DNA of 44,850 nt from Nitrospinota bacterium. GTDB taxonomy: Bacteria > Nitrospinota_A > UBA7883 > JACRGQ01. Positions 7,232 through 44,559 of the stretch are shown one piece after another (the first letter of the stretch is position 1; every line of letters begins with the position of its first letter). Location: contig JAOUMJ010000022.1 in the NCBI GenBank assembly GCA_029881495.1, positions 1-44,850 of the forward strand. The letters are read 5' to 3'. Under the pieces are notes generated by a model. That model ran no database searches and was not told the origin of the DNA. It was given only the letters and a program-made list of their open reading frames with translations. Both the position numbers and the translations under genes were made by a program.

Positions 7232-10200
7232 TTACGGATTGATGTAGGCGGAACCTGCGTTGCTAGTCGAGCCGGGATCTTCCTGAGGCGCACCGACCAC
7301 CCTGTTAGTAGTTGTCGTACCGACCGACATACCGAACCTGTCTCCCGCCGCCGCATCATACGGAGTAACTTTCGTCACGACAGTAGGTGCCGTAGCAAGG
7401 AAAGTATAGGCCGCTCCAGCCTCGCCATTTTCCAGATACGAGCCGACAACAGCATTATTGCCGTTTATCGCAACCGAGTTCCCAAACGCCGCGCCGGTCA
7501 CAGGGGTCGTGGCCTTCACTTCGGAAGTTCCGCCCGTCCATGAGTTGGTGCCGTTATTTGTAAGAAGGAATGCCGCTCCAGAAGTTGCCGAAGATGTGGT
7601 CCTATCTATCGCGCCGACAAGAGCATAGCTTGCGCTCAAGGCGACCGAATATCCGAACTTATCTCCTGCGGCGTAAACGACCATCACGTTGTTTCCGGTC
7701 GTCCATGTATTAACCACGGGATTTGCCTTATTGAATGGATGAACCGCTCCCGAATTCGCTCCCCATAGCGACTGGTACGGAGCGCCTACCATTGCGTTGT
7801 CGCCGTCTATCGCAACCGAAAATCCGAACTGAGCCCCGGCGGCGCTGACAAGCGGAAGCAACTGCGCCCTGTCGCCCCATGTATTGGAGCCGTCATCCAT
7901 GAATACATATGCCGCGCCGGCATCTCCGACCGCGCCTGGATCCTCTTGCGGTGCACCGACTATCGCAAAGAGTCCGCTTATAGAAACCGATTTACCGAAC
8001 AATCCGTTCGCGGAACCGCCGCCTGAAAGTATTTTTGTTCCCGCCGACCATGTGTTTGTAGCCGGAGTAATCAGCTTGTAAACATATGCAACGCCTTGAC
8101 TGGAATTCTTTCCAGACGCGCCGACGATCGCATAGCTTCCGCTGATGGCAACCGACTTGCCGAAGTTATCCCCCGCCGCCGGATCGCTCGCCACTATCTT
8201 GGTCGCTCTCCCCCAGCTATTGTAGGTTGCATCTCTCTTGTATATATACGCCGCCCCCGCGTCCGCCCCACCGGCATCCTCGTAAGGCGCGCCGACTATC
8301 ATGTAGTCACCGCTAATGGCGACCGCTTCGCCAAACCCGTCAGACGCCTGCGGGTCGGTAGCCGCTACCTTACCGATCGAAGTGAAGTTCCACGACGTAG
8401 CCGGAAGAGCGTTGCCCGCTGGATCGGTGATGGTCCCCGCAAGATCTACCGAATACTGCGCCTTTGCCGAAGGGAGCCATGCGTTCGGCGTGAAGGTCGC
8501 GACCGTATCACCACCGCTAAAACCTAAAGTTCCTGCGACTCCGCCAGAGACCGGGTCTGTGACTGTAAACGATGTGCCGTCTATCGTCGCGGTATCCATC
8601 GGCTCCGAGAATGTGGCGATAACTTTTGTATCAATGGCGACATTCGTCGCGCCGCTTGCCGGGCTCTTAATTGTTACGGACGGAGGGGTGGTATCGATAT
8701 CTATTCCGTCACTGTTCCCCGACCACGCGCCGATATTGCCGGCAGTATCGACCGCGCGCACTTTAGCGAATAGAGTCTCTCCATCTGCACCGGTTATATC
8801 CTTGGTCAGAACATTGCCGACTGTGCCGCTGAACTTGGTACTCCCTCCAGGTATCGTACCTACTTGCAGTTCGTAGCTCGCCACGCCGCTACCACCTACA
8901 TCAGCAGATGCCCCCCAGCTGAATGTCACGGTGGTGACCTGACTGTATACCCCAGCGTCGGTGGGGGTGCCCGGTGCTGTCGGCAGAGTTATGTCGATAG
9001 TAATGCCGTCGCTGTTCCCCGACCACGCGCCCGTCAATCCCGCGCCGTTCACCGCCTGAACACGGGCGTAAAGCGTATTCGTATCAACGCCGGTAACATT
9101 CTTCGTAAGGACATTGCCGACATTGCCGCTGAATATGTCGCTTCCCCCCGGAGCGGTCCCAACCTGAAGGTTGTAGCTCGCTATTCCGCTTCCGGCGTCT
9201 GTCGCCGCAGCCCAGTTGAACGTCACCGTAGCGCTCGTGCTCCATAGCCCAGCATCTGTCGGTATTCCCGGCGCTGACGAAGCCGATGTATCTATCGTTA
9301 TCCCGTCGCTGTTCGCGGAGAAACTCCCCGCGGTTCCGGCGCCGTTTACCGCCTGAACTTTCGCGTATAGGGTATCGCCGTTGTTGCCGGTAATATTCTT
9401 TGAAAGAACATTTCCGACATCAGCGTTGAATACGTCGCTCCCGCCCGGCGTGGTGCCGACCTGGAGAACGTAACTGGCGACCCCGCTCTCGGCGTCCGCC
9501 GAGGCGACCCAGCTGAATGTAACCGTTGTGTTAGAAGTATATGTTCCTCCGTCTGTCGGGGTGCCGGGTGTGCTTGGCTGTGTGATATCTATCGTTATCC
9601 CGTCGCTGTTGCCTGAAAACGCTCCGCTAAGCCCCGCCCCGTTAACGGCCTGCACGCGCGCGTATAACGTTTGCGAATGCGAACCGGTAACAGTTTTCGT
9701 GAGTACGTTGCCGACGTCGCCGTTGAAGATGTCGCTTCCACCCTGAGATGTGCCTACTTGAAGATAATAGGATGTCACGCCGCTGTTTCCATCAACGGCA
9801 GGGGTCCAGTTGAATGTCACCGATGTCGAAGTGCTGTACACCCCAGCGTCTGACGGTATCCCCGGCGATGAAGGAGCAGTAGTGTCTATCGTTATGCCGT
9901 CGCTGTTCCCAGACCAGCTACCCACCGTACCCGCGCCGTTCTCCGCCTGAACCCGCGCGTAGAGGATGTCGCCGGTCACGCCGTTAATATCGTATGTGAG
10001 GACGTTGCCGATTGGACCGTTGAACTTGTTGCTCCCGCCGGGGGTCGTACCGACCTGGAGGTAGTAGTTTACGACCGTGCTTTCAGGGTCGGTTGCCGCC
10101 GTCCAGTTGAATGTCACTGTGGTAGAGCCGCTGTAAACGCCGATATCGGTAGGCGTTCCGGGGGTCGTCGGCGAAGTTGTATCTATAGTTATTCCGTTGC

Positions 10201-12877
10201 TGTTGCCGGACCATGCGCCTGTCGACCCGGCGCCGTTTACCGCCTGAACGCGGGCGTATAACGTATTACCGTTAGAGCCTGTCACGTTCTTTGTAAGTAC
10301 GTTGCCGACATCCCCGCTGAAGATATCGCTACCCCCCGGCGATGTACCGACCTGCAGATTGTATGAAGTGACGCCGCTGTCGGCATCAGTAGCGCCTGTC
10401 CAGATGAAGGTCACCGTAGTTGACGTTGTGTAGACCCCGGCGTCCGTCGGAACTCCCGGCACGCCGGGCGGAGATGTATCTATCGTGATCCCGTCGCTGT
10501 TTCCCGACCATGGGCTTACGTCACCCGTACCGTTCACCGACTGTACGCGGGCGTAAAGGGTCTGCCCGTGTGAACCGGCAATATCCTTCGTGAGAACATT
10601 GCCGACATCGCCGCTGAATATGTTGCTCCCGCCCGGGGCGGTTCCTACCTGCAGGTTGTAGCTTGCTACGCCGCTCTGCATATCCGCACCCGCCGCCCAT
10701 GTGAAGATCACCGTCGTCGACGATGTATACAGACCGTCATCAGTCGGGATCCCCGGAGCGGATGGGAGGGTCTGGTCTATAAGGAGTTCATCGAAAGTCG
10801 CATCCGTCCCCGCGTTGCCGACTCCGTCTGTGGCCGTGACCGCGACGTCATATGTATTATCCGTGAGCGCGGCAAGAGCATTAGCCGCAAGCGTCCAAGT
10901 GCCGTTGCCGTTGTTCACTGCAGTCTTCGTCTGCGCGTTTACGACCACAGAGATCGTCGCGCCGTTGTCGTCGACCGTTCCTGTAAGCTGTGGGCGGTTG
11001 TTGTTCGTAACGAGCGTATCGACCGTCACTACAGGTTTTGTGAGATCAACAAGAAGTTCATTTGTCGTCGCGTCGGTTGCCGAATTGCCCGCGACATCAA
11101 GAGCAGTGACCAATACCTCGTATGTTCCATCCGTAAGGTCGGAGTTCAGGCTTCCGGCGATAAGCGTCCATGAACCGTTCGCATTGTTCGTAGCGATCTT
11201 GGGGGCTTGCGCGCCAACCTTTACCGATATGGCCGCGGTAATGTCATCCACGTTCCCAGTCAATTCTGGATTCGCGCTCTTCGTGTTCAAACTGTTGACG
11301 GTAACCACCGGCGGGGTGAGGTCTATATCAAGTTCGTTCGTGGTAGCATCGTTCGCGAAGAGGCCGACCGTATCTGTGGCCTTCGCTTTAACGTCGTATA
11401 CCCCTTCAGGAAGAACGGTAAGGCTGTTGTCCGCAAGTATCCATGTGCCGTCGCCGTTATTCACAGCGGTCTTGGCCTGTCCGTTTACGACGAGGGTGAC
11501 GACCGTGTCCGGATCATTATCCGTCACCGTGCCTGAAAGCGGCGGCCTCTGATCATTCGTAGTGAGAGGATCGACAGTGACATCCGGCGCAGTCGTATCG
11601 ACGATTATCGCCTTGCTTCCGCTGTCGGACCAGTTACCCAATTCATCCCGTTCCTGCACATAGAGGGTATATGTACCGTCCGCGAGCGGCGATGATGGGA
11701 CGAGAGAAGTTGCTGTAGTTTCCGTTGTGTTTGCCGTCATGTCCGGGTTGTTCATCCTGTACCTGTAAGTGCCGACGCCGTCGCCGTCGCCGGGGGTCCA
11801 GCTCCATGTCGGCTGAGTATTGTCTGTCGGTGACGAGCCGGTGACGACAGGCGCGTTCGGCGGGGTGGTATCTACTATGATCGCGGCGAAGCCGGAATCG
11901 GACCAGTTGCCCGGTTCGTCCCGCTCCTGAACGTAAAGTGTGTGCGGACCATCCGTGAGTGCGGATGTTGGAGTGAATTCAAGAAAAGTGGTCTCTGTGG
12001 AAGCTACTGAAAGATCCTTGTCGTCAAGTTTATATCTGAATGTTCCGTTCCCCCCACCACCCGCAACCCAGCTCCATGTAGGGGTGGGATCTTTTGTCTT
12101 TGGCGGATTTTCGACAGATACTACAGGGGGGCTGGGGACCGGTCCATCCACCTTGATATCAAAATATCCGGATATCGACCAGTCGCCAAAGTCGTTCCTC
12201 TCCTGTACGTAAAGGGTGTAAACGCCGTTCGGAAATCCGGGGAGATCCGGCGTGTATGTCAGCTCGGTAGTTTCCATTGCGTCCACTATCGCGGTCTCAT
12301 CATCTACCGCGTATCTAAAGGTTCCGTTCCCTCCGCCGTTACCGAACCATGTCCATACGGGGGTGCTGTCGAGGCTAGGTGTTGTCCCGGATACGGTAGG
12401 AGCGGCAGGCATCGCAATCGGCGTGGCGTTTACGACAGCCGACTCCTTGCTCTCGCCATACCTGCTTACAGCCGTCACGACATAGTAATACTTCGAACCC
12501 CCTTCTAGATCCTTGTGCGTATATGTAGGTTTTAAAATTCCGTTAATCTTTGTGCCGTTTGTCGAAGAAACTATTGGCCCAGCAGGAAGATCAAGGATAA
12601 ATGTGTCTGTTGAGGTAGATGTCAGCGTGTCTGTGGATGTCAAGGTCGATGTGTCGGTAGAGGTAGGCGCTTCCTTCACCCAGTAGATATTGTAGGAGTC
12701 TGCCCTGAAGACTTCGTTCCAGGTAAGCGTAACTTCCACGATACCCGGTTCCGCCGCGGTGGCTACTACATTCTGCGGAATAGAAGGCTCATTGCCTGTC
12801 TGCTGAATGCCGCATGAGGCAAAGATGACCGCAAAAGCCGCCGCAAAAATAAATTTTACAGCCGGACGAAGAAACAT
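7232..12877 (-). CDS. Giant modular lipoprotein with FN3, Ig-like repeats and a seven-blade FG-GAP propeller
   Basis: About 1,880 residues. Numbered from the longer frame start at 12898, the lipobox is FASC with Cys29. The order is: FN3 (38-162, interrupted by a Ser/Thr/Asp-rich insert at 79-100); three Ig-like domains with YTLYVQERDE-type motifs (163-436); three others with LTGTVDDN and NGTWTL motifs (437-709); seven repeats of about 99 residues (711-1404); one Big_5-like domain with ATFSEPMD (1405-1507); and seven FG-GAP repeats (FGxSVAISGxxAIVGAP type, 1509-1888). Seven FG-GAP units match one integrin-alpha-like propeller. The ATG at 12877 has GGAAGTGAG upstream and puts the basic residues right before the hydrophobic core, so I prefer it. 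Probably surface-exposed and adhesive or matrix-binding; no catalytic domain is seen. Confidence 0.9.
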   Translation of the reverse strand: MFLRPAVKFIFAAAFAVIFASCGIQQTGNEPSIPQNVVATAAEPGIVEVTLTWNEVFRADSYNIYWVKEAPTSTDTSTLTSTDTLTSTSTDTFILDLPAGPIVSSTNGTKINGILKPTYTHKDLEGGSKYYYVVTAVSRYGESKESAVVNATPIAMPAAPTVSGTTPSLDSTPVWTWFGNGGGNGTFRYAVDDETAIVDAMETTELTYTPDLPGFPNGVYTLYVQERNDFGDWSISGYFDIKVDGPVPSPPVVSVENPPKTKDPTPTWSWVAGGGGNGTFRYKLDDKDLSVASTETTFLEFTPTSALTDGPHTLYVQERDEPGNWSDSGFAAIIVDTTPPNAPVVTGSSPTDNTQPTWSWTPGDGDGVGTYRYRMNNPDMTANTTETTATSLVPSSPLADGTYTLYVQERDELGNWSDSGSKAIIVDTTAPDVTVDPLTTNDQRPPLSGTVTDNDPDTVVTLVVNGQAKTAVNNGDGTWILADNSLTVLPEGVYDVKAKATDTVGLFANDATTNELDIDLTPPVVTVNSLNTKSANPELTGNVDDITAAISVKVGAQAPKIATNNANGSWTLIAGSLNSDLTDGTYEVLVTALDVAGNSATDATTNELLVDLTKPVVTVDTLVTNNNRPQLTGTVDDNGATISVVVNAQTKTAVNNGNGTWTLAANALAALTDNTYDVAVTATDGVGNAGTDATFDELLIDQTLPSAPGIPTDDGLYTSSTTVIFTWAAGADMQSGVASYNLQVGTAPGGSNIFSGDVGNVLTKDIAGSHGQTLYARVQSVNGTGDVSPWSGNSDGITIDTSPPGVPGVPTDAGVYTTSTTVTFIWTGATDADSGVTSYNLQVGTSPGGSDIFSGDVGNVLTKNVTGSNGNTLYARVQAVNGAGSTGAWSGNSNGITIDTTSPTTPGTPTDIGVYSGSTTVTFNWTAATDPESTVVNYYLQVGTTPGGSNKFNGPIGNVLTYDINGVTGDILYARVQAENGAGTVGSWSGNSDGITIDTTAPSSPGIPSDAGVYSTSTSVTFNWTPAVDGNSGVTSYYLQVGTSQGGSDIFNGDVGNVLTKTVTGSHSQTLYARVQAVNGAGLSGAFSGNSDGITIDITQPSTPGTPTDGGTYTSNTTVTFSWVASADAESGVASYVLQVGTTPGGSDVFNADVGNVLSKNITGNNGDTLYAKVQAVNGAGTAGSFSANSDGITIDTSASSAPGIPTDAGLWSTSATVTFNWAAATDAGSGIASYNLQVGTAPGGSDIFSGNVGNVLTKNVTGVDTNTLYARVQAVNGAGLTGAWSGNSDGITIDITLPTAPGTPTDAGVYSQVTTVTFSWGASADVGGSGVASYELQVGTIPGGSTKFSGTVGNVLTKDITGADGETLFAKVRAVDTAGNIGAWSGNSDGIDIDTTPPSVTIKSPASGATNVAIDTKVIATFSEPMDTATIDGTSFTVTDPVSGGVAGTLGFSGGDTVATFTPNAWLPSAKAQYSVDLAGTITDPAGNALPATSWNFTSIGKVAATDPQASDGFGEAVAISGDYMIVGAPYEDAGGADAGAAYIYKRDATYNSWGRATKIVASDPAAGDNFGKSVAISGSYAIVGASGKNSSQGVAYVYKLITPATNTWSAGTKILSGGGSANGLFGKSVSISGLFAIVGAPQEDPGAVGDAGAAYVFMDDGSNTWGDRAQLLPLVSAAGAQFGFSVAIDGDNAMVGAPYQSLWGANSGAVHPFNKANPVVNTWTTGNNVMVVYAAGDKFGYSVALSASYALVGAIDRTTSSATSGAAFLLTNNGTNSWTGGTSEVKATTPVTGAAFGNSVAINGNNAVVGSYLENGEAGAAYTFLATAPTVVTKVTPYDAAAGDRFGMSVGTTTTNRVVGAPQEDPGSTSNAGSAYINP
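8687..10768 (-). repeat. Seven in-frame tandem repeats of about 297 bases in the giant lipoprotein gene
   Basis: Each unit encodes about 99 residues with a core running PGTPTDAGVY, TTVTFNW, SYNLQVGT, GNVLTK, LYARVQAVNGAG and WSGNSDGITID. Unit starts fall near residues 711, 810, 909, 1008, 1107, 1206 and 1305 of the longer frame. The period is nearly constant, but the units are diverged at DNA level, so they are old duplications or are kept by selection rather than a fresh expansion. Confidence 0.88.
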
Positions 12878-13339
12878 TACAAACTCACTTCCAAACATAA
12901 AGAATTAAAAAAAATCGATTTACCTTCAAATCCCTGCACACTTCTGCATAAAAAATAGGGCAATGTTCATACCAATTATTTTAAACCCCGCCATATTTTT
13001 GGCGAAACATTACGATACGGAATGATATCTTTCAAAGCTATTGAATAATAATGATATATCTAAAATAGCACATCCCGGCCTTGATTTGTCTACATTTGTG
13101 GAAATATTTGTTTCAATTGATGATTTTGGCATAAATGTGCATATTATTATACCTAGTGCATCTAAAATACCCGGATTTCCAAATAGTTTGAACGGAAAAC
13201 CTAATCGCATCCCAGTTCGGATTTTTGACACTATTGAGAAATGTAAGATCAAAGGTTTTGCATGTTGAGTAGTAAAAACGAATTTTGTAGGAATCTGCCA
13301 TTTTTTGTCGGGTAAGGAGCGGCCGGAAGGGGGTCAATA
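12878..13339. other. AT-rich intergenic region
   Basis: It holds the upstream region of the giant lipoprotein gene (minus strand). The part from about 13000 to 13270 is notably more AT-rich than the flanking genes and contains one short open frame (described separately). I see no strong promoter or terminator. Confidence 0.5.
13041..13268 (+). pseudogene. Short open frame, possible degraded transposase start
   Basis: A 75-codon frame has a segment, TFVEIFVSIDDF, that resembles the first residues of IS982-like transposases. Nothing after it matches, there is no ribosome binding site, and the base composition differs from its neighbours. It may be an insertion-sequence remnant or chance. Terminal inverted repeats were not found. 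Confidence 0.2.
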
Positions 13340-39737: not shown

Positions 39738-40124
39738 ATGTCAGATCTTGATCCAAATTTAAGAGTTCTAATCGTTGACGATTTTGCTACTATGCGAAAA
39801 ATTGAGCGGAACATACTTGGACAACTCGGAATAAAGAATGTCGATGAAGCCGATGATGGTTCGACTGCACTGCCAAAACTGCTGAACAATCCTTACGATG
39901 TAGTACTGCTTGACTGGAACATGCCCACCATGACCGGTCTTGAACTGCTACAGGCGATAAGGGCCGAGGACAACTTGAAAGATCTCCCTGTTTTGATGGT
40001 TACGGCTGAAGCGCTAAAAGATAATATTGTCGCCGCCGCTCAGGCAGGAGTAAATGACTACATCGTGAAGCCGTTCACTGCGGGAACCCTTGAAGAGAAA
40101 CTGAAAAAGGTACTGAAGACATAA
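39738..40124 (+). CDS. cheY: CheY-like single-domain response regulator
   Basis: A 128-residue receiver with all key residues: Asp14-Asp15 ([12 protein letters not shown]), phospho-acceptor Asp59 in [13 protein letters not shown], Thr89 in MVTAEA and Lys111 in YIVKPF. The sequence is very close to chemotaxis CheY, which binds the flagellar switch. The ATG follows GAGG within a clear ribosome binding site. No other chemotaxis or flagellar gene lies nearby, so its partner is elsewhere or it acts in another pathway. Confidence 0.93.
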
Positions 40125-40226: not shown

Positions 40227-40958
40227 TTACTCCATATCCTCAATCTCTTTTTTAAGAATTTTCGCCTCGACAAAATCATTTTTCAATTCCAGCGCCTTGT
40301 TAATATTGCCAAGCGCCTCATCTTTTCTACCCCATTCCTTGTAGGCACGGGACATATTGAAATAGAGCGCTTCGTCGGTAGAGTCTATCTCAAGTGCTTT
40401 TCGGTAGTTCCTGAGAGCCTCATCAAACATCTCGTTTTTCCTCAGCTCAATGCCGAGTTCGTTGAACAGGTCCAAGTTCTTTCTGTCAAAAAGATCGGTG
40501 CTCTCAGCCATTGCGTCGAAATGTTTTTTTGCTTCATCGGTCTCGCCCAACGCCATGTGCGCCTTGCCTTTACCCAGGTGAGCCTCAAGATTTTTATCGT
40601 CCTCCTTTAGAACTTTGCCGAACTCAAATGTTGCCGCATGGTATTCCTTCTTCTGGAGGTGTTCCTGAGCAACTTTTATCTGTTTGGAAACCTTTTCAGC
40701 CTTTTTCTGCTCTGCCGTTTTTTTCTTGAACTGACACTCATGCTTTGCGCAATCGCCGAATTTTTCCAGGAAATCGGCCTTATTTACTGTCAATGCCACA
40801 AACTTCGTATGCGTGCCGTCCGGCTTGAGGAAAAACAGCTCTACATCACCTTTGCTATTCTCCTTCGCGTAGTAATGCAATGCGTGAGATGAACTGGCGG
40901 CCGTGCCCGCTGAACCAAGCGTAAGCGGTTTTTGTTCGTAAAAGATCCCTTCGATCAC
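40227..40958 (-). CDS. TPR protein with a small N-terminal domain
   Basis: A 243-residue protein without signal peptide. Residues 1-80 are a strand-rich unit (GIFYEQKPLTLGS, VELFFLKPDGTHTKFVALTV) that I do not recognise; two cysteines are in DCAKHEC. Residues about 95-243 form four or so TPR repeats, including ALRNYRKALEIDSTDEALYFN, separated from the first domain by a lysine-rich helix. The start is GTG with an excellent GGAGGG site six bases upstream. It lies 68 bases after the bactofilin-TPR gene on the same strand and probably works with it. The C-terminal TPR part resembles that of the receiver-TPR protein at 3752. Confidence 0.82.
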   Translation of the reverse strand: MIEGIFYEQKPLTLGSAGTAASSSHALHYYAKENSKGDVELFFLKPDGTHTKFVALTVNKADFLEKFGDCAKHECQFKKKTAEQKKAEKVSKQIKVAQEHLQKKEYHAATFEFGKVLKEDDKNLEAHLGKGKAHMALGETDEAKKHFDAMAESTDLFDRKNLDLFNELGIELRKNEMFDEALRNYRKALEIDSTDEALYFNMSRAYKEWGRKDEALGNINKALELKNDFVEAKILKKEIEDME

Positions 40959-41026: not shown

Positions 41027-42802
41027 TTACAAAGTCTCTTCAGCACTTCCTGGCGCTGTCGGTTCTGCCGCCTCCGGCGCTACTCCAGTATTAGCAAGCG
41101 GTGTAGCGGCGGCCGGGCTGTTTTTTACCTTTGCTTCCCTGAACTTCTTAAGCTGTGACAGGAACCACGCATTACCAGGATTCAGTTTCATGGCGCGCAA
41201 AACATTTTCGATAGCCTTATCGTACTCCCCTTTTCGGAAATAGATTTCCGCAAGCGTGTCAATGTAGTCGGGAAGATTTGAATCATACTTCATAGAATCG
41301 ATCGATCTTTTTTCAGCAATATCAAGATCCTTCATTTCCATCGCCAGCGCCCAGGCGAGGCGGTTGAGTGCCGGAGTAAAATCGGGATCCAATTCAAGGA
41401 TCTTGTTGCAGTAATAAATGGACCTGCTCCATTCCCCCAGCTTGCTGTATGTCGTTGCAAGCCCGTGGTAGGCACGTATATTGTCAGGCTCCTGGGCAAG
41501 AGCAAGATTAAAGAACTCTATAGCTTTATCCGTTAAACCTTCGGTCAGGTGTTCATAGCCGGTATTGTTCATCTCTTCCACGTGTTTGCTGTCGAGCCTT
41601 CCAAGCCTTCTGAATTCTAGCGCCGCCTGCTTTTCATAGCCGAATTTGTAATAAAGATTTGCCAGGGCAAGACGGGCATCCTTGTTGTCTGAATCAATTC
41701 TCAGCAGATCCTTAAAAGTTTCAGAGGCCTCCCTGAGTTTTCCAACCTTTCTTTGCAACTGGCCGATTATCATCAAATCCTCGGATTTCGGTGGATCGGA
41801 AACGACCAATTCCTGATAGATCTCAAGAGCTTTTTCAAGCTGGTCATTTTCCTTATGCAGGGAAAAGAGTTTATGTGCCGCTTTCTTGTTATTGGGACTT
41901 GCGCTTACAATTATCTTCTGTATCTTTATCTGGCCTTTAATATTTCCGGAAGATTTATAGAAATCGGCTAGCTTCTCTGATATCTCCTTTTCATCAGGCT
42001 TTTTCTGCAGATATTCCTCATAGAACGGGACAGCCTCATTAAATCTCCCGGATCTGTCAAGGGAGATTGCGAGTTCCTTTTTGAGCTGAAAACCGCTTCC
42101 GATAAGGTCGTTTACACGCAAGAATAGCACTGCTGCCTTTTCATACTCTTCCGCTTCGTACCATGATTTGGCAAGAGATAGAAGCTTTTCTGAATCATCA
42201 CCTACGCTGTACTGGTAGATCATCCTTGAAACAAAATTATCCCTGAATTCCTTCTTGGAATAATCCACGAACCAGAAACCTAATATGCCTAATGTAAAGA
42301 TCAGGAACAGAACCGCGAGCGGGCCCTTGAAACTTTTTACAGAATACGCAACTCCGCTACTCTCCCATGGAGCGGTCTCTTCATATTCACCTTTTCTGTT
42401 GCCGTTCTCAATATAGAGCAGTGCGGGCTCTATCTCCTTTTTGCCGTTGCCTGAAACCTTTTTCATAGTTTTCGGGGGCTTGTCGGGCATCTGGCAATTA
42501 CCTTTGAATACCGCGCCCTCTTCTGATTGGAAAACAGGCGTATCAATATTCCCGGTCAAATGGCTCTCGTTGAATATGGAGATCTTCTCCGCAGCCTTGA
42601 CATCCCCTATCACCTCACCCATGTTGAAAAGAGTACCGGCAAAGACCTTCGCCTCAACCTTCCCTCTGTTCCCAACAATCAAGGTGTCATCGGTCCTTAT
42701 CTCCCCCTGGAAGATTCCATCGAACCTGAGTGCGCCTTTGAATTTCAAGACGCCATTCATCTTTACTCCAGCGCCGAAATATGAATTCAGCTCTTCGTGC
42801 AT
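41027..42802 (-). CDS. Bactofilin domain fused through a membrane helix to TPR repeats
   Basis: A 591-residue protein. Residues about 1-105 are a bactofilin (polymer-forming cytoskeletal) beta-helix: GVKMNGVLKFKGALRFDGIF, then IVGNRGKVEAKVFAGTLF with the typical 'G-x-V-x-A' ladder and IDTPVFQSEEGAVFKGNC. A polar linker follows, then one transmembrane helix (about 159-180, GPLAVLFLIFTLGILGFWFV), then at least eight TPR repeats (about 200-550) and a Pro/Ala-rich tail. With the bactofilin part cytoplasmic, the TPR part would face the periplasm. Bactofilins are normally 100-200 residues and soluble or membrane-associated, so this fusion is unusual. The ATG has GGAGGG just upstream. Confidence 0.88.
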   Translation of the reverse strand: MHEELNSYFGAGVKMNGVLKFKGALRFDGIFQGEIRTDDTLIVGNRGKVEAKVFAGTLFNMGEVIGDVKAAEKISIFNESHLTGNIDTPVFQSEEGAVFKGNCQMPDKPPKTMKKVSGNGKKEIEPALLYIENGNRKGEYEETAPWESSGVAYSVKSFKGPLAVLFLIFTLGILGFWFVDYSKKEFRDNFVSRMIYQYSVGDDSEKLLSLAKSWYEAEEYEKAAVLFLRVNDLIGSGFQLKKELAISLDRSGRFNEAVPFYEEYLQKKPDEKEISEKLADFYKSSGNIKGQIKIQKIIVSASPNNKKAAHKLFSLHKENDQLEKALEIYQELVVSDPPKSEDLMIIGQLQRKVGKLREASETFKDLLRIDSDNKDARLALANLYYKFGYEKQAALEFRRLGRLDSKHVEEMNNTGYEHLTEGLTDKAIEFFNLALAQEPDNIRAYHGLATTYSKLGEWSRSIYYCNKILELDPDFTPALNRLAWALAMEMKDLDIAEKRSIDSMKYDSNLPDYIDTLAEIYFRKGEYDKAIENVLRAMKLNPGNAWFLSQLKKFREAKVKNSPAAATPLANTGVAPEAAEPTAPGSAEETL

Positions 42803-42987
42803 AATCCCTCCACCTGTATACAGGCTATGAAAACAAGTATTTAGATAGAATATCCTTCAAAGTGGGTCAAGTCAAGCGTGACATATTCCGCAATGACATG
42901 GACTGAAACCTTCATTTACATTTTTCATTCGCGTGGTTCTATTCGTAACTCCAATATAAACGATATACCGCAGAATTAAAAAAATAG

Positions 42988-44559
42988 TTATCGCCTGACG
43001 TCCTTCAGAAAATATCCACCCAAGGGGAGTTTACCGCTTTTTTCCACTACGATTCTCTCGGAAGCGCTAAATAAGCCTATCAATGAAACGGCAAACAGAA
43101 GGATATAGGCGTATTTCCAGCTAAAAATTATCGTATCTCGAAACCTTGTCACCAACCCGGCAACACCGAGGGAAACCACCATAAAATAATAGGGGAGTAT
43201 CGGATACGACATCCGGCAGAGAGCATAAAATGAGATCGCGACAAAAAATACAATACCGAATACGAAAATAGGCAACCACCTGAGAAATATGGTCTCACCC
43301 TCCCCCTTTTCCCTGAATATAAGCAAAAAGCCGTATAAAAATAACGGAAGGGTGACATACAGGGACCACTTTGCGTCCGGGATAAATGAATCAGCCATAT
43401 TTGGAACGCGTCCGGTAACCCCGGCAGGGAAATTATTCAGAAAGAATCCATTGGAAAGTCCGTTCAGAAAAACACCTGCCTTGAACGGTATCAGTTTCAG
43501 CTCTTTGGCAGGATTTTCCATTATATATTTGAACCCGAGACGATACCCGTCCCTAATCATTGCGAGATGCCTTTCGTCCGTCGGGTCAAGACTGGCTACA
43601 TAGCCGTCTTTCAGTTCGAGACTGTAACCCTCATATTCAACAACCGGCGAGTATGTCCCGTTGGCGTTTACATGGTGCCCCTCCAGGAAATTGAACGGGC
43701 CGTTTAGCGCCGTTGGAACAAAAACCGGCAGGGAGGCATTTTTATATGAGGCGTTCAATTCAGTCATAAAGGAATAATTCCTTGCCACCCAAGGGGCGAC
43801 TATGAGCAAAAATCCTGCGATGGCCGTCAGCGCAACAACCCCCTTTTTCGCGGGACTCCACCCCCTGCGCAATAGACCGAAAAGAAAAAAGATGAATAGT
43901 ACCAGTATATATTCAGAACGTGTGAGGCACGCAGAAGCGGACGCAATCCCGAATAAAAATGATATCGCCAGTTGATTTATCCTGACGAAGGTGGGCTCTT
44001 TCATTAATATCACGTACAGGGCCACTGCAATGCTTAAAGTAAAAAAGTACACATTCTCAATGTTCAGACCGCCGGAGATAAAGATCAGCGCGAATGATGC
44101 TGAGCATAGAATCGATGTGATAACGGCTACACCCCTGCCATAGAGTATCCGCGCGGTCAAGTATACGGCAGGAACAGACAACGCCCCCAGCATCGCGTAC
44201 ATTATTTTGATGCTGAAGTAGTCAAAACCGAAAATACGGATAAAAAATACCAGTGTCCATGCGGTGAACGGCGGGACAAAAGGTATGTTAGTCCCCTTAC
44301 CTTCAAGGAAATTCCTAGCAAGGAACACGAAAAAATCGGCGTCCGAAAAGTGAAAGACCGATCCCGCCTCCTGCCTCATCCCAAGGTGCCTCGTCACGTC
44401 GTCAATAATCCACCCCGTCGACGATATGTGCATATACCTCATCACAAAGGAAAATATGGCAATGAGAATTATGAAGAGGGTTTCACTTCTTTCCCAAACG
44501 GTCCCGCTATTGTCTTCCGGCAAAGCGCCTCCGTATCCCGATAATGCCGTCTTTTGCAT
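42988..44559 (-). CDS. GT-C-type membrane glycosyltransferase-like protein
   Basis: A 523-residue protein with about eleven hydrophobic helices. After the first helix the loop has FSDADFFVFLARNFLEGKG, an acidic site of the GT-C/PMT-like type, followed by FVPPFTAWTLVFFIRIFG. Long soluble loops lie between about residues 275 and 390. The end, after the last helix, is short (KSGKLPLGGYFLKDVRR). It probably transfers sugars from a polyprenyl-phosphate donor outside the cytoplasm. The start is ATG after GGTGGA. It lies 51 bases after a macro-domain gene and about 185 bases before the bactofilin-TPR gene. Confidence 0.78.
   Translation of the reverse strand: MQKTALSGYGGALPEDNSGTVWERSETLFIILIAIFSFVMRYMHISSTGWIIDDVTRHLGMRQEAGSVFHFSDADFFVFLARNFLEGKGTNIPFVPPFTAWTLVFFIRIFGFDYFSIKIMYAMLGALSVPAVYLTARILYGRGVAVITSILCSASFALIFISGGLNIENVYFFTLSIAVALYVILMKEPTFVRINQLAISFLFGIASASACLTRSEYILVLFIFFLFGLLRRGWSPAKKGVVALTAIAGFLLIVAPWVARNYSFMTELNASYKNASLPVFVPTALNGPFNFLEGHHVNANGTYSPVVEYEGYSLELKDGYVASLDPTDERHLAMIRDGYRLGFKYIMENPAKELKLIPFKAGVFLNGLSNGFFLNNFPAGVTGRVPNMADSFIPDAKWSLYVTLPLFLYGFLLIFREKGEGETIFLRWLPIFVFGIVFFVAISFYALCRMSYPILPYYFMVVSLGVAGLVTRFRDTIIFSWKYAYILLFAVSLIGLFSASERIVVEKSGKLPLGGYFLKDVRR

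Follow-up and report, generated by a model that had tools for sequence, protein, structure and literature searches.

A bactofilin fused through a single transmembrane (TM) helix to a long TPR arm is encoded in the window, the whole 44,850-nucleotide stretch of DNA analysed here, and this bactofilin-TM-TPR fusion represents a conserved family across three phyla, not a one-off. We propose that the protein acts as an integral-membrane bactofilin, in which the N-terminal beta-helix would polymerise along the inner membrane, on its cytoplasmic side. The flexible linker that follows, with some 55 residues here and 23-67 in the family as a whole, would join the beta-helix to a TM helix that stands in for the membrane-targeting peptide usually found at the N-terminus. 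The TPR superhelix at the C-terminal end would then reach into the periplasm, where a conserved distal cap may dock a client, most probably a peptidoglycan or other envelope enzyme or a protein that regulates one. A cytoplasmic filament would thereby set the client's site of action on the far side of the membrane, and the soluble bactofilin of most of these genomes may co-assemble with the fusion. We assign a probability of roughly 0.55 to this reading of a cytoplasmic bactofilin polymer whose periplasmic docking arms position a client; the target of the arms is probably peptidoglycan, a part of the reading that carries less weight than the whole.

The fusion gene (41027-42802, minus strand; 591 aa) was delineated by ORF calling, Pfam, hydrophobicity and AlphaFold2 modelling, and starts at an ATG with a good Shine-Dalgarno sequence in front of it (AGGTGGAGGGATT-ATG, as read from the sequence; the Shine-Dalgarno and leader occupy 42803-42820, minus strand). 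The first-pass annotation had recognised a bactofilin beta-helix at the N-terminus and suggested that its predicted structure be compared with that of BacA, and the comparison bears this out. Residues 8-104, the polymerisation domain (42491-42781, minus strand), match Pfam Bactofilin (PF04519) with an E-value of 1e-23 and a score of 83.8 bits, against a gathering cut-off of 27.9. Modelled by itself, this domain reached a mean pLDDT of 93.8, and its best PDB matches are the Thermus bactofilin filament 6rib (target-normalised TM-score 0.94, rmsd 1.1 Å) and BacA 2n3d (TM-score 0.88, rmsd 1.5 Å). F99 of the fusion aligns with BacA F130 and Thermus F105 at the C-terminal polymerisation interface; the F130R substitution abolishes BacA polymerisation (PMC12448750), and PDB entry 6ria is a crystallised Thermus F105R mutant.

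A full-length AlphaFold2 model, for which 29 homologues from the family were aligned, places the beta-helix at residues 7-100 (pLDDT 94-98), followed by a linker whose residues 113-160 fall below a pLDDT of 50 and are disordered; low pLDDT and low identity together delimit this linker as residues 105-160 (42323-42490, minus strand). The prior claim of one transmembrane helix also holds, in that the sole hydrophobic segment of the protein spans residues 161-179 (Kyte-Doolittle mean 2.39) and is modelled as a helix at residues 162-185 (42248-42319, minus strand). Where at least eight TPRs had been anticipated, the model contains ten TPR helix pairs and then a capping helix, which together form the arm (residues 204-561; 41120-42193, minus strand) at a pLDDT of about 95. 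Many TPR families score above the Pfam cut-off in this C-terminal part, and the top PDB fold matches of the arm are TPR superhelices.

A search for the same architecture and its neighbouring genes across genomes, another check proposed with the first annotation, gave a divided answer: the architecture is conserved across three phyla, but the neighbours are mostly not. In the window's phylum, the long fusion form is present in 18 of 24 genomes, a TPR-less form of about 163-172 aa in four, and a short soluble bactofilin alone in two; all three of the TPR-less forms examined closely carry a hydrophobic C-terminal segment. Bactofilin frames of more than 400 aa occur in 58 of 77 Nitrospinota genomes, and all of those examined closely have TPRs after a hydrophobic helix, the helix being weak in three. 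A third, small phylum also carries the fusion (genomes G095 and G173), and none was found in other phyla among the matches listed (the best 150 or so, with 336 genomes sampled from many families). Long frames in G238, G275 and G294, considered as further fusions, proved to be artefacts, and an 875-aa frame in G048 was set aside because its bactofilin domain sits at the C-terminal end. A single-sequence scan of genome contigs returned one ordinary clostridial bactofilin. The fusion of G009 (L041, 8686-10320) departs from the others in that its C-terminal part runs into unrelated sequence, probably the result of a frameshift or of faulty assembly.

On a tree of the bactofilin core, the fusions and the TM-tailed forms stand apart from the short bactofilins, with support of 85/99, which is below the tool's starred level, and the fusions have one origin. 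The forms that have lost the TPR arm and kept the C-terminal hydrophobic segment, in effect tail-anchored bactofilins, are placed separately on this tree (L054/L055, L057 and L098). It is thus the arm, not the TM anchor, that was lost several times, and the scatter of these forms indicates that the anchor is kept more strongly than the arm. In L057 the arm was probably lost rather than never gained, since the gene lies in the same ccmABC-era-recO context as the full-length fusion of L045. The idea that the arm had split off as a separate protein in TPR-less species was rejected, as those species lack any distinct protein with the cap.

Conservation along the protein is uneven. Mean pairwise identity is 46% in the bactofilin core, 15% in the linker, 20% in the TM helix and 21-24% over most of the TPR arm, then rises to 33% at residues 442-474 and to 47% in the distal cap (residues 475-556; 41135-41380, minus strand), whose NRLAW...DTLxE...QLxKF pattern is kept across phyla. 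The length of the arm after the TM helix differs among members, from about 276 to 566 residues. A cap model trained on Nitrospinota caps only gave 67-137 bits (best stretch) to fusions of the other two phyla and at most 34 bits to other TPR proteins in the fetched loci; in a whole-genome search, with a model that included the sequences in question, fusions scored 141-179 bits and the next best TPR protein 57-83. The protein is well conserved at its two ends and drifts in the spacer and arm between them, as would be expected of a polymer end plus a binding tip. Because the predicted periplasmic part forms a TPR superhelix whose tip is conserved, its most likely role is to dock a client.

Parts of this arrangement have precedents. 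Like the fusion, the canonical bactofilins (Caulobacter BacA, Thermus TtBac and Myxococcus BacNOP) possess the right-handed beta-helix fold (TM-scores 0.88-0.94), the Pfam Bactofilin domain and the polymerisation Phe; however, they are mostly shorter than 200 aa, soluble and equipped with an N-terminal targeting peptide, whereas in the fusion the core is followed by a TM helix and then by a TPR arm of 360 residues. Flanking domains of bactofilins vary (PMC12364344), and about 3.2% of UniProt bactofilins, mostly gammaproteobacterial, bear a TM helix (PMC12448750). These share the mode of anchoring with the fusion, but their helix is N-terminal to the core, whereas that of the fusion is C-terminal and is predicted to carry a periplasmic domain. 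A closer functional parallel is the recruitment by BacA of PbpC (PMC12448750) and LmdC (PMC10945521), both of which are bitopic proteins with a periplasmic enzyme domain. In both cases a cytoplasmic polymer is coupled via a TM helix to a periplasmic domain, as proposed for the fusion; these are two-protein systems ending in an enzyme, whereas in the fusion the link is covalent and a TPR scaffold takes the place of the enzyme. The M23 peptidase gene beside the bactofilin gene that is the hallmark of the BacA-LmdC system has no counterpart here: the seven genomes searched do contain M23 genes, yet none in the vicinity of the fusion gene, and an LmdC-type partner was accordingly rejected. For the arm, the nearest analogies are NlpI, a TPR lipoprotein that scaffolds peptidoglycan hydrolases (PMC7049810), and LbcA, the TPR partner of CtpA, a protease controlling endopeptidases (PMC12569750). 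In these proteins a TPR superhelix is the proposed docking platform for envelope enzymes, as it is in the fusion arm, although both are outer-membrane lipoproteins without a cytoskeletal domain; LbcA is a fold neighbour of the arm, among hundreds of TPR matches.

The genes around the fusion had been taken to hint at an envelope-assembly machine. Their identities were read correctly: the next gene (40227-40958, minus strand), 68 bp after the fusion, encodes a soluble TPR protein of 243 aa (Pfam) with a strong ribosome binding site (GGAGG, 7 nt before a GTG start), and the upstream gene (42988-44559, minus strand) encodes a GT-C membrane protein of the PMT_2 type (Pfam, E-value 1.5e-10). The machine itself finds little backing. 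The GT-C gene is common only to the window and its nearest relative, G001, and belongs to no conserved unit. The downstream TPR gene is linked to the fusion within family f1 only, where it adjoins the fusion in 7 of 10 fusion loci; there the two genes mostly overlap by 4 bp or lie at most 37 bp apart (68 bp in the window), so that their co-transcription in f1 is plausible. Orthologues of the downstream TPR gene from the remainder of the class are distant from the fusion; at four of seven loci (L106, L107, L108 and L110) they adjoin a convergent gene for a CheY-like single-domain response regulator. The same convergent pair occurs in most f1 loci, the window included (CheY-like gene at 39738-40124, plus strand; Pfam and locus comparison), and the CheY gene is a frequent partner of the downstream TPR gene rather than of the fusion. 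With the GT-C gene in two genomes only and the TPR gene tied to the CheY gene elsewhere, an operon-encoded machine was rejected. The TPR/CheY pair sometimes stands beside a gene of about 400 aa resembling the MEMO1/AmmeMemoRadiSam type, and the N-terminal 75 or so residues of the downstream TPR protein form a distinctive domain. Nitrospinota genomes mostly carry the fusion as a lone gene between RNase PH-like and sodium/calcium-exchanger-like genes, as assigned by reading the sequences.

These neighbourhoods bear on what the arm might serve. It could scaffold a process other than wall synthesis, such as outer-membrane or surface-polymer assembly, motility or chromosome anchoring, which we regard as somewhat unlikely. 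TPR proteins serve many complexes, the Ccm/Era/RecO or CsgG-like lipoprotein neighbours of some genomes do not indicate peptidoglycan, and in G011 a short soluble bactofilin gene directly follows parA-parB (L060, around 8763-10073). Myxococcus BacNOP is reportedly linked to ParABS. On the other hand, the targets of most bactofilins that have been studied are enzymes of the envelope or of peptidoglycan (PMC12448750, PMC10945521), and at the compared fusion loci neither a conserved neighbour naming a client nor a specific alternative client was found. The CsgG/GNA1162-like lipoprotein gene (product of about 250 aa) is convergent beside the bactofilin gene in two phyla, at loci with a fusion or a TM-tailed form (L045, L047, L048, L049, L054, L057 and L094).

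A second alternative concerns the polymer. The fusion might be an anchor subunit, sparse in filaments of soluble bactofilin, that hooks these filaments to membrane and periplasm, its own polymerisation not being the point. Most fusion-bearing genomes do encode a separate short soluble bactofilin, from a separate branch of the tree (in the window's genome, a second bactofilin gene of 140 aa), and a filament whose subunits all bore a ten-TPR arm might be overcrowded, in which case the fusion may be a minor subunit. The crowding also counts against the docking-arm reading, as does the repeated loss of the arm, which shows that it is dispensable in some lineages. However, the polymerisation Phe is retained in 40 of the 44 fusions, no less consistently than in short bactofilins, and in G006 and G009 only the fusion was found, in assemblies 92% and 87% complete. 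We consider a purely anchoring role unlikely and favour the fusion as a polymer subunit with a docking arm of its own.

Placement of that arm in the periplasm, which the first reading of the gene had proposed along with the domain order, draws support from the architecture shared by three phyla and from positive-inside charges. Within the 15-17 residues flanking the TM helix, the 44 fusions average 3.8 K/R on the N side versus 2.3 on the C side, and a net charge of +2.7 versus +0.1; net charge is higher on the N side in 35 and lower in five, a bias whose significance the Wilcoxon p-values overstate, as the 44 are related sequences and not independent trials. The window's own protein lacks the bias, with two K/R before the helix and four after, and is ambiguous. 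The canonical N-terminal targeting peptide is missing from the fusion, which is anchored by the TM helix C-terminal to the core. The BacA-type peptide is 8 residues long (PMC12448750), and in many fusions the core begins only a few residues after the first Met, leaving no room for one. Taken together, these features argue for a bactofilin in the cytoplasm and a TPR arm in the periplasm (N-in/C-out). A reversed topology, or an arrangement with both domains in the cytoplasm and the arm recruiting partners there, for instance the downstream TPR protein, would suit the K/R-richer C side of the window protein and the close spacing in f1 of a TPR gene whose product has no obvious signal peptide, but is quite improbable, given that the family-wide charge bias points the opposite way, that known bactofilins are cytoplasmic, so that one TM helix puts the C-terminus outside, and that the downstream TPR gene is unlinked outside f1.

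How a cytoplasmic bactofilin polymer controls enzymes across the membrane is a question for the field that has so far been studied in two-protein systems. With polymer, anchor and predicted periplasmic arm in one family, the question becomes testable with one gene, and the conserved distal cap offers a defined bait for the client. It is tempting to go further and envisage a trans-envelope cytoskeleton in one polypeptide, in which filament subunits cross the inner membrane and show ordered periplasmic docking tips, in Nitrospinota and two other phyla, replacing separate adaptors; we hold this broader proposal tentatively, at a little under even odds. No published description of a bactofilin with a C-terminal TM-TPR extension, in Nitrospina or elsewhere, was found in the open-licence literature. 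Among known marine nitrite oxidisers, members of the Nitrospinota are the most abundant, and they grow as helical to slender and curved rods (PMC8026999); the fusion, present in most of their genomes, is a concrete candidate for control of their shape. Elsewhere in the window, a gene at 7232-12898 (minus strand) encodes an 1888-aa protein with seven FG-GAP repeats and bacterial Ig-like and fn3 domains, which is large and probably either secreted or displayed at the cell surface.
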